Below are positions 15,663 through 17,758 of a DNA stretch of 47,063 nt, piece after piece; positions within the stretch are counted from its first letter, which is position 1; every line of letters begins with the position of its first letter. A program made the translations under genes and the position numbers. Source of the DNA: an uncultured bacterium. Its GTDB lineage: Bacteria; Armatimonadota; HRBIN16. The notes beneath the pieces were generated by a model, which did not search any database, was not told the DNA's origin, and saw nothing but the letters and a program-made list of their open reading frames with translations. The stretch spans positions 1-47,063 of the forward strand of contig CALJAP010000108.1 in NCBI GenBank assembly GCA_938027655.1, in the 5' to 3' direction.

Positions 15663-16436
15663 TTACGTATCCGCCGTTCCACCCGGTATACCCGACAGGT
15701 CACAGGGCAGAGTGTAAGTAGGCACAGTGCCGGAAGATGTGGGCGAGGTGCCGGGAATGTTGCCCCTGCGCGGGTAGTATTTGGCGTGTCCATCCACAAA
15801 GTTCACGTTAAAGCCGTCGGAATGGCGCGGGTGCGCGGGGAAATTGTCCCAGCCAAAAGGACCGGTCGGGGCACGACAGAGGGGGTCCACCTGCGTTCCT
15901 CCAAGGGGGATGTAGGTGCTATCGTAGAACATAGTGGTATTCGCCGGTTCTCCAATGGCTCCTAAACTCACCACGGGGTCATTGTCAAATAAGCCGGGCG
16001 GCAAAGCAGGGTCCTGAAAAACGGCGAAGTTGAGCGCATACGACGAGTAACGGAAATTACCGCTTCCGTTTAGCCCTAATGACCGCAAAATCGCCACGAA
16101 ATCGATGCCCGGGCGATGCGAGGGACAGACCATAATGTCCACGTTCTTGACGTAGGGCATGGTGGCATCGTACACAGTAAACACACGGTCACCCGTACCC
16201 GGCAACAAAATGGCACGGTCCATGCTGTAGACGCTCTGCGGGAAGGTCTCATCATAATCTTGCACATAGGCAAGAGTTGCTAAGGCATACTGGCGCAGGT
16301 TGCTGAGGCAGGAAGCAGAGCGTGCCTTTTCGCGTGCTTGCGCAAAGACGGGGAACAGAATGGCTGCCAGTATCGCGATAATCGCGATGACTACGAGCAG
16401 CTCGATGAGTGTAAAAGCCTGTCGTGTGTTCGACAT
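15663..16436 (-). CDS. Type II secretion/type IV pilin-like protein (DUF1559-like)
   Basis: A 257-residue pseudopilin of the family abundant in Armatimonadota and Planctomycetota. The class III signal is [14 protein letters not shown], with Glu at +5 and Ala, not Gly, at -1. It is followed by a hydrophobic helix, [22 protein letters not shown] and a globular domain ending in [20 protein letters not shown]. It is expected to be cleaved and assembled at the membrane by a prepilin peptidase encoded elsewhere. ATG 16436 has AAGGAGGG just upstream; the frame extends to 16496 without homology. It is apparently monocistronic. Confidence 0.92.
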
Positions 16437-16467
16437 CTTGCCCTCCTTGTGGATAACTTGCTTTACT

Positions 16468-16496
16468 ATTTTAACTGCCTGCACGTGCGAGCGCAA
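16468..16496 (-). promoter_or_regulatory. Candidate promoter of the 16436 pseudopilin
   Basis: On the minus strand TTGCGC (16491-16496), 17 bp and TAAAAT (16468-16473) lie 31 bases before the ATG. Confidence 0.45.
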
Positions 16497-16566: not shown

Positions 16567-16595
16567 TTGACAAAACTAGTATTTCATGGTATATT
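16567..16595 (+). promoter_or_regulatory. Near-consensus sigma-70 promoter facing an ORF-free region
   Basis: TTGACA (16567-16572), a 17 bp spacer and TATATT (16590-16595) match consensus at 11 of 12 positions, the best + strand promoter in the window. No protein gene follows on this strand; the predicted transcript runs to the terminator at 16805. Confidence 0.7.
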
Positions 16596-16704
16596 GATAG
16601 CGAGTTACAGCGGGTTTTTGTACTTGGTCTGAATGAGATATTACCAAAAAAGGGGTCAAAAGAGCAGATTTTCGAATAGATTTCGAGTATAATAATACTA
16701 AAGA

Positions 16705-16746
16705 AACTCAGGTTCGCAGCCGATAATTGTAGTAGCGAACCGAGTT
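16705..16746 (-). terminator. Hairpin, possible terminator of the parB operon
   Basis: AACTC-GGTTCGC pairs with GCGAACC-GAGTT over a 17-base loop. Read on the minus strand the stem is followed by TTTCTTT, so it could end the parB transcript. The same hairpin would lie inside the proposed + strand RNA. Confidence 0.4.
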
Positions 16747-16759
16747 CACCTTCCTTCCT

Positions 16760-16805
16760 CGGGGTAGCAGGCTTTGCTCTCCTTTCACTGCTACCCCGCT
16801 TTTTT
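16760..16805 (+). terminator. Strong intrinsic terminator
   Basis: C + GGGGTAGCAG (16760-16770) pairs perfectly with CTGCTACCCC + G (16788-16798) and is followed by C and six T (16800-16805). The polarity is + strand: the opposite strand has no T-run after the stem. Confidence 0.8.
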
Positions 16806-16813
16806 GTACTGGC

Positions 16814-17758
16814 TCACTCTTCCATCAGCTGGTCGATGAGCGTTTCCGCCACAATCAGCAGGGAGCGAAGCACCTCGACGGTCTCCACACGTTGCTCCGG
16901 GGACATCTGCCCGGGTTCCAGTTCGCCCAGCAGTTCGATGGCTTTGCGCACCACGTCGGCGGGTTGTCGCGTGATGGTCGCTGCCGGAGCGGTGGGTCTG
17001 TCTGCCGTTGCAGCTGGAGAGGGAGACACTGCGGCGGTTTCCTCTTCGGGCAGGGGAGGTAGTTCTGGGTTGATCCACTCCGCCCAGTCAGGCGCGGAGC
17101 CACGCAGTAACTCTTCGGCACGCTCAGGTGACATGCGCAATGCCTTCACCAGTTTGGCGGTGTCGTCGGTGCTCAGGCGGTCGCTCTTGATTTTTTCCGC
17201 CACCTGCGCCTGCACTTCCGGCATCTCGTTCAGCTGCTTCAAGAAGCGGGCGTGTTTTTCGGTGATGGCGCCTTCGGCAGGACGGTTAGGACGCGAAACC
17301 ACCTGTTCGGCGATCTCCTCAGGCAGCTCCAGCAACTCCAGCATATAGCCTACCATGCGCTCGCTAATGCCCAGACGACCTGCTAGGTCGCGGTTAGAAA
17401 GCCCCAGCCGTGTCTTAGCGATTTGCAGGGCGCGGGCACGGTCGATGGGACGCAGGTCTTCGCGTTGCAGGTTCTCGATCAGCTGGTCGGTAAGAGCCTC
17501 CTCGGGGTCTACCTCGCGCACGATGCAAGGGATTTCGAACAGTCCCGCCATCTGCGCCGCGCGCCAGCGTCGCTCACCAATCACAATCTGATACATGTTC
17601 ACGTTGTGCAGTGGTTTGACCACGATGGGCTGTAACATCCCGTGCTGGCGAAGGCTGTCTGCCAGTCCTTGCAGACTCTCCGCGTCCATGCCGCGACGAG
17701 GCTGGTCGGGGTCTTCCACGATTTGCGAAACGGGTATCATGCGAACTTCCACTGCCAT
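16814..17758 (-). CDS. parB: ParB/Spo0J-like protein
   Basis: A 314-residue ParB-type protein. The N-terminal nuclease/CTPase-like domain carries DPDQPRR and GERRWRAAQ (61-69), then ENLQREDLRPIDRARAL and a helix-turn-helix (LSNRDLAGRLGISERMVGYML). Chromosomal ParB binds parS, loads CTP and spreads. Here the C-terminus is a proline/alanine-rich linker (about 225-260) plus a short helical end, unlike the standard leucine-zipper dimer domain. No ParA gene and no parS-like site are in the window; the gene follows a KaiC-like ATPase by 12 bases. A transcription-regulator or non-chromosomal partition role is possible. Confidence 0.85.
   Translation of the reverse strand: MAVEVRMIPVSQIVEDPDQPRRGMDAESLQGLADSLRQHGMLQPIVVKPLHNVNMYQIVIGERRWRAAQMAGLFEIPCIVREVDPEEALTDQLIENLQREDLRPIDRARALQIAKTRLGLSNRDLAGRLGISERMVGYMLELLELPEEIAEQVVSRPNRPAEGAITEKHARFLKQLNEMPEVQAQVAEKIKSDRLSTDDTAKLVKALRMSPERAEELLRGSAPDWAEWINPELPPLPEEETAAVSPSPAATADRPTAPAATITRQPADVVRKAIELLGELEPGQMSPEQRVETVEVLRSLLIVAETLIDQLMEE

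Follow-up and report, generated by a model that had tools for sequence, protein, structure and literature searches.

A conserved small RNA gene of Armatimonadota with a sigma-28-type promoter and predicted pairing partners

An intergenic region of a bacterial genome from the phylum Armatimonadota, situated on contig G000:C108 (the window, that is, the whole stretch of 47,063 nucleotides that was analysed), appears likely to encode a small RNA that belongs to the flagellar sigma-28 regulon and would act in trans, by pairing with other RNAs. In the proposed mechanism, FliA would transcribe an RNA of approximately 72 nt from a promoter at 16699-16726, with transcription ending at a terminator at 16760-16805. 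An open 5' region (GCGAACCGAGUUCACCUUCCUUCC) and the terminator loop (GCUUUGCUCUCCUUU), both of which are C/U-rich and resemble an anti-Shine-Dalgarno sequence, would then pair with purine-rich stretches of other RNAs, Hfq perhaps assisting. The best target candidates in the genus are an exopolysaccharide/exosortase operon (containing a site termed ‘X’) and a leader RNA that precedes a PEP-CTERM-like gene (containing a site termed ‘Y’). In this way, matrix genes would be repressed while cells swim, if the presumed direction of regulation is correct, and a complementary RNA driven by sigma-54 would act as a regulated partner or sponge, countering or timing the small RNA. As read from these sequences, the RNA probably links swimming to the production of a surface matrix.

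The small RNA gene and its conservation

The features that define the gene are as follows.

16734-16805, plus strand: conserved small RNA, its start near 16734 (and therefore its length of about 72 nt) being taken as 7-9 nt past the -10 element, and its 3' end lying in the T run
16699-16726, plus strand: sigma-28 (FliA)-type promoter, with TAAA at 16699-16702, a 16-nt spacer and GCCGATAA at 16719-16726
16741-16758, plus strand: CGAGTTCACCTTCCTTCC, an unpaired C/U-rich seed region, predicted to pair with complements X and Y
16760-16805, plus strand: intrinsic terminator, with stem 16760-16770/16788-16798, loop 16771-16787 and T run 16800-16805

The genus was sampled using the source genome itself (G000, 3.5 Mb) and nine relatives from the same genus. 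A DNA search of the relatives located the region in six other members at 80-93% identity, and the 72-nt body proved to be 100% identical in the seven genus genomes where the RNA was found, as compared to 84-93% identity for ParB within the genus. In other families, the same type of search matched only the 3' part of the region. A covariance model in which the terminator stem was specified (R2) matches the window at 16699-16806 with an E value of 4.7e-24, and identifies homologues in 88 of the 291 genomes of the phylum. That model replaced a first version (R1), in which the RNAalifold structure was wrong and the variable stems were misaligned, and which identified homologues in 53 of 291 genomes; a weak match to R1 alone, in genome G074 (family f22, L095), was left out of the counts. 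Full-length copies are present in eight families (f1, f7, f24, f29, f30, f31, f32 and f33), and in f12 the terminator hairpin and its loop are mostly all that matches. When 84,980 species (one genome each) were scanned with a sequence pattern, 29 loci were returned, with no identifiable organism outside Armatimonadota. Rfam 15, searched at the gathering cut-off and also at E values up to 10, gave no relevant match to the window or to the homologous loci (where two neighbouring tRNAs were the sole matches), and the Rfam check that had been suggested in a preliminary description of this DNA consequently assigns the window to no family. Judged in this manner, the RNA is a new family, without an Rfam match and confined to Armatimonadota as scanned.

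The most strictly conserved portions of the RNA are its single-stranded motifs. The seed region CGAGTTCACCTTCCTTCC is identical in 11 of 11 sequences of an alignment (A2) drawn from f1, f7 and f24, with few changes elsewhere, and CTCTCCTTT within the terminator loop is likewise invariant in all 11, while the sequence of the stem varies by family. When folded alone, the RNA is predicted to display a mostly open 5' half followed by the terminator hairpin. The 11-bp stem (CGGGGTAGCAG/CTGCTACCCCG) and the CTTTTTT that follows it (16799-16805) are present as previously described, and the 17-nt loop that the stem encloses (GCTTTGCTCTCCTTTCA) is conserved; the loop word TTTGCTCTCCTTT has one exact occurrence in the source genome. 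Across 48 sequences, changes on both sides are observed at 9 of the 11 stem pairs, and 99.4% of cells in the stem are paired (0 of 500 shuffles; slid versions at most 74%), in an alignment that was fitted to the structure and is therefore biased towards pairing, albeit with a large margin over the controls. These observations argue for an RNA in its own right, with an intrinsic terminator whose structure is under selection.

Conservation and covariation together strongly support the presence of an orphan small RNA gene at this locus. The preliminary description had proposed a candidate small RNA of some 200 nt, and had named conservation and covariation in homologues as a check; that check bears out the RNA gene, which is conserved phylum-wide with a covarying terminator stem, but the length (approximately 72 nt conserved, rather than 200) and the main promoter required revision. 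Conservation throughout the phylum, the C/U-rich motifs that do not vary and the promoter of sigma-28 type are additions to that description. The arguments originally given would have been insufficient by themselves, because the promoter motif on which they drew occurs at chance level and the fold of the whole region is weak. The interval had also correctly been described as devoid of open reading frames, none of at least 40 aa being found in 16596-16790. A smaller reading frame, on either strand, was considered and rejected: indels between families break the frame, and by eye no start codon is accompanied by a ribosome site.

A sigma-28-type promoter and its association with FliA

A FliA-type promoter lies directly upstream of the RNA and is its predicted main promoter. 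Its TAAA and GCCGATAA elements correspond to the sigma-28 (FliA/SigD) consensus established for Escherichia coli and Bacillus, and nearly all families display CTAAAGA, a spacer of approximately 16 nt and GCCGATAAT at a fixed distance upstream of the invariant core. Of the 48 homologues, most agree with the sigma-28 promoter at no fewer than 9 of 11-12 positions. Across the ten genomes of the genus sample, the pattern TAAA-N14-16-GCCGATAA produces 32 matches, versus 3 for the reversed pattern. The four sites found in the source genome precede flgM, the RNA itself, a SigB/F-GGDEF gene and an flgF/G-like gene, and in relatives within the genus the pattern also precedes flagellin. Flagellins of family f31 are similarly preceded by TAAA-16-GCCGATAA, with the same spacing as at the RNA. 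In one genus of that family (g109), the -10 element of the RNA promoter reads GCC-ATAAT, which is one base short and also fits the extended -10 of the housekeeping sigma factor; it is possible that the latter factor uses that promoter as well.

The distribution of the RNA closely follows that of FliA. Among genomes at least 90% complete from the eight RNA-bearing families (with FliA scored as present at TIGR02479 E < 1e-50, and counts made by hand), the RNA is found in 40 of 41 FliA-positive genomes and in 0 of 9 FliA-negative genomes (Fisher 4e-9, not corrected for phylogeny). When incomplete genomes are added, the corresponding figures are 47 of 54 and 1 of 15, and the sole FliA-negative genome that harbors the RNA (G104) is 64% complete. 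Genomes devoid of both FliA and the RNA arise separately in f1, f7, f24 and f30. Because many FliA-positive families do not carry the RNA, it is lineage-restricted to part of the phylum.

The SigB/F-GGDEF gene mentioned above (G000:C119, L213:116-1429, minus strand) encodes a SigB/F/G-type sigma factor fused to GGDEF, 438 aa in length, and its sigma-28-type promoter is located 71 nt upstream. It is conserved across members of the genus (L189, L192, L201, L203 and L208). This fusion is unusual, and may couple c-di-GMP-type signalling to the motility regulon.

Complements of the RNA within the genus

Two additional DNA matches to the RNA, located away from its own site, are near-perfect complements when read on the opposite strand, and are kept in the genus.

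Complement X, 8 genomes: contains the stop codon of a gene for a Wzc-like tyrosine autokinase, about 90 nt before a sugar-transferase gene
Complement Y, 6 genomes: separated by about 210 nt from the PEP-CTERM-like gene downstream of it (an assignment that scores under curated cut-offs)

The operon that contains X is an exopolysaccharide/exosortase operon, which also encodes a Wza-like protein (by eye) and exosortase. The predicted duplex between the RNA and X reaches -59 to -74 kcal/mol in seven genus genomes, and that with Y reaches -70 to -77 kcal/mol in six genomes, as compared to approximately -37 to -43 for shuffled sequences in both cases. The position of X across a stop codon is unusual for a target site. 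Pairing is predicted to involve two blocks (RNA/complement), UUCCUUCC/GGAAGGAA and GCUCUCC/GGAGAGC; within Y, GGAGAGC (facing the loop) and CCTGCTACCCCGAGGAGGGAAGG (facing the linker and 5' arm) are found in collinear order. Y is preceded by TGGTACGATTCTTGCA, which is near the sigma-54 consensus, and RpoN is encoded in 7 of 8 genomes checked, including G000 and G200; Hfq is also encoded in the source genome. Because a second promoter is found between Y and the PEP-CTERM-like gene, Y may lie outside the corresponding mRNA.

A third conserved similarity to the RNA (L019) was rejected as a target, being in sense orientation within coding sequence. Since L019 is conserved despite that orientation, similarity alone is no proof of targeting.

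A sigma-54-type partner RNA

In family f31, a free-standing RNA has the promoter elements TGGCAC-N5-TTGC and a terminator of its own. It starts with GGAGAGCAAAGCCTGCC, a 17/17 complement of that family's version of the sigma-28 RNA, and the predicted duplex between the two (-57 to -65) is again stronger than those of shuffled sequences (approximately -40 to -44). A complementary RNA driven by sigma-54 would suggest that the pairing of RNAs across the two flagellar sigma factors is a solution that has recurred. A different emphasis follows from this arrangement, in which the sigma-28-dependent RNA mainly titrates, or is titrated by, the sigma-54 partner and so functions as an RNA-RNA timer linking the two flagellar sigma factors, with the exopolysaccharide site being secondary. 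The fact that a sigma-54-type RNA complements the terminator loop and 5' arm in f1 (as Y) as well as in f31, the possession of a terminator by the f31 partner, and the precedent provided by Campylobacter (PMC4626219, PMC11187230) are all consistent with that scheme, but in the window's genus Y has no clear terminator and may be a mere leader, and f7, f24, f29 and f30 have no demonstrated partner, such that we regard it as possible but unlikely.

A still less probable interpretation is that X and Y represent repeated DNA or protein-binding sites, and that the RNA acts otherwise, for example through protein sequestration or general competition for Shine-Dalgarno sequences. X and Y are indeed also near-perfect DNA repeats, and orientation suits pairing at two loci, with the third similarity being in the sense direction. 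Pairing between RNAs, and thus the reading that is favored here, is better matched by three further observations: (i) a C-to-T change in Y of genome G006 retains the pair as G-U; (ii) a second block, in which GGAGAGC faces the loop sequence GCUCUCC, is collinear with the first; and (iii) complementarity occurs independently in f31, with a different sequence.

A more elaborate version of the pairing model is offered tentatively. In that version, the sigma-28 small RNA and its sigma-54 complement would form an RNA-RNA switch of the Armatimonadota, titrating each other and balancing flagella against an exopolysaccharide/exosortase (PEP-CTERM) matrix; such a switch would have arisen separately from the Campylobacter sigma-28/sigma-54 RNA pair, and would have been re-used with other promoters (in an ECF-type copy in f31 and a hairpin-only relative in f12).

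The sigma-54-type RNA of f31 (L248-L250, L253, L254, L256-L259 and L270-L282) is divergent to a dTDP-glucose 4,6-dehydratase-like gene, and contains a conserved CCTCATAAG/CTTATGAGG hairpin. At three loci of f7 and f29 (L264, L265 and L266), sigma-54-type boxes are followed by GTGAGGAGAGCG, and L264 and L265 have a GCCTATCGTCGC stretch in common; these loci resemble another RNA. Considered as partners on the basis of their sigma-54 and GGAGAGC elements, they were rejected, their duplexes being no better than shuffles.

Relation to known regulatory RNAs

A literature search returned no description of a small RNA in Armatimonadota. In E. coli, the sigma-28-dependent small RNAs UhpU, MotR, FliX and FlgO are controlled by FliA, linked to motility and derived from UTRs (PMC10578931). 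Control by FliA and a link to motility are likewise predicted for the Armatimonadota RNA, and Hfq is present in both organisms; in contrast to the UTR-derived RNAs of E. coli, however, the Armatimonadota RNA has a separate gene between other genes, preceded by a FliA-type promoter of its own. In Campylobacter, CjNC1/CjNC4 (CJnc170) are sigma-28-dependent non-coding RNAs with predicted targets in sigma-54-dependent 5' UTRs (PMC4626219), and CJnc230 and CJnc170, an RpoN and a FliA small RNA respectively, have opposing effects (PMC11187230). The resemblance consists of a sigma-28 non-coding RNA that is predicted to pair with a sigma-54-dependent RNA and, in the proposed scheme, of a FliA and an RpoN small RNA that counter each other, and the differences are threefold: (i) CjNC1/4 are approximately 44 nt in length, versus approximately 72 nt for the Armatimonadota RNA; (ii) CJnc230 arises by processing of the flgE mRNA, whereas the sigma-54-type RNA of f31 is free-standing; and (iii) the Campylobacter targets are flagellar genes, whereas the Armatimonadota complements are located at matrix/exosortase genes or constitute a free RNA. 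Compared by description, the two systems look convergent rather than homologous.

The RsaE/RoxS RNAs of Firmicutes are C-rich small RNAs that bind the Shine-Dalgarno sequence. They resemble the present RNA in that both a linker and a hairpin loop present single-stranded C/U-rich motifs complementary to the purines of ribosome-binding sequence, but differ in promoter class and lineage, and the Armatimonadota RNA matches no Rfam family. If the proposed function is correct, post-transcriptional control would connect matrix building to swimming in a group of bacteria that is distant from the enterobacterial and Campylobacter models.

Upstream elements and a possible longer form

Three further elements are located upstream of, or overlap, the start of the RNA.

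16567-16595, plus strand: distal sigma-70-type promoter P1 (TTGACA-17-TATATT), which would give a longer form of about 204 nt
16689-16694, plus strand: TATAAT box with no good -35, a possible second sigma-70 start by sequence reading only
16705-16717/16735-16746, plus strand: inverted repeat AACTCAGGTTCGC/GCGAACCGAGTT, with 12 pairs and one bulge, overlapping the sigma-28 promoter

P1 had been put forward as the promoter of the RNA. It is present, with 11 of 12 consensus matches, but the 2.3 kb scanned contained 1 such site versus 0.9 expected by chance, so that the motif alone is not significant. All seven genomes of the genus retain GACAAAAC and a TATAYT -10 (as well as GTATAAT at the second box), six of the seven retain the complete TTGACA, and P1 was not seen in other families; the element is thus conserved at close range, but secondary to the sigma-28 box. 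The internal 12-bp hairpin exists but is specific to the genus (10-12 pairs in seven members) and absent elsewhere, while the suggested long-range pairing between the 5' and 3' ends is not supported, the 206-nt fold being weakly better than shuffles (z = -2.0) with nothing conserved.

Given that P1 and the TATAAT box are both kept in the genus, the locus may also yield a longer version of the RNA; one possibility is that in a transcript driven by P1 the inverted repeat would cover the 5' end, which stays accessible when transcription begins at the sigma-28 promoter. The stronger proposal, that the conserved element is simply the terminator and 3' UTR belonging to a longer RNA that starts from the TTGACA promoter (16567) as originally drawn, is very improbable: the P1 elements and internal hairpin are kept in seven genus genomes, but neither P1 nor the interval 16596-16690 is conserved beyond the genus, in contrast to the sigma-28 promoter and the 72 nt of the RNA itself.

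Neighbouring genes

Both neighbours of the RNA gene are encoded on the opposite strand, as had been noted.

15663-16496, minus strand: prepilin-like gene, DUF1559-type by eye, facing away from the small RNA region
16814-17758, minus strand: parB (ParB_N, HTH_ParB), a convergent neighbour outside the RNA gene

A parB-like gene is found near the RNA in f1 and at several loci of f7, f29 and f33, and is absent from the RNA loci of f24, f30 and f31, which indicates that the RNA is not an appendage of parB. The RNA had been described as partly antisense to the 3' end of the parB transcript; this holds for the 3' UTR only and does not extend to the coding region, as the last base of the RNA, 16805, falls short of the parB stop codon at 16814. 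A cis-antisense RNA of parB was rejected on that ground and because the adjacency is missing in three families, and a cis-antisense effect on parB is not the likely function; the RNA adjoins other genes in other families, and its trans complements are kept in the genus. That the element is nothing but a bidirectional terminator or parB 3' end, with no separate RNA, is scarcely credible even with parB adjacent in four families, as a T run is present on the plus side only, the loci devoid of parB already contradict it, and the most conserved part consists of unpaired motifs outside the hairpin.

Related hairpins in other families

Family f31 contains a second relative of the RNA (L083-L094; one to two per genome), which shares the terminator loop but is preceded by an ECF-type promoter (GGGAAC...CGTCTATA) and differs in its 5' half (GTAGCAAGCAACTACACACCTCTCTTGG). 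Hairpin-only relatives in f12, f30 and f32 (L168-L184, L088, L096 and L097; one per genome) correspond to a candidate RNA of approximately 110 nt, in which the terminator loop GCTTTGCTCTCCTTTC is accompanied by unrelated 5' parts and other promoters.
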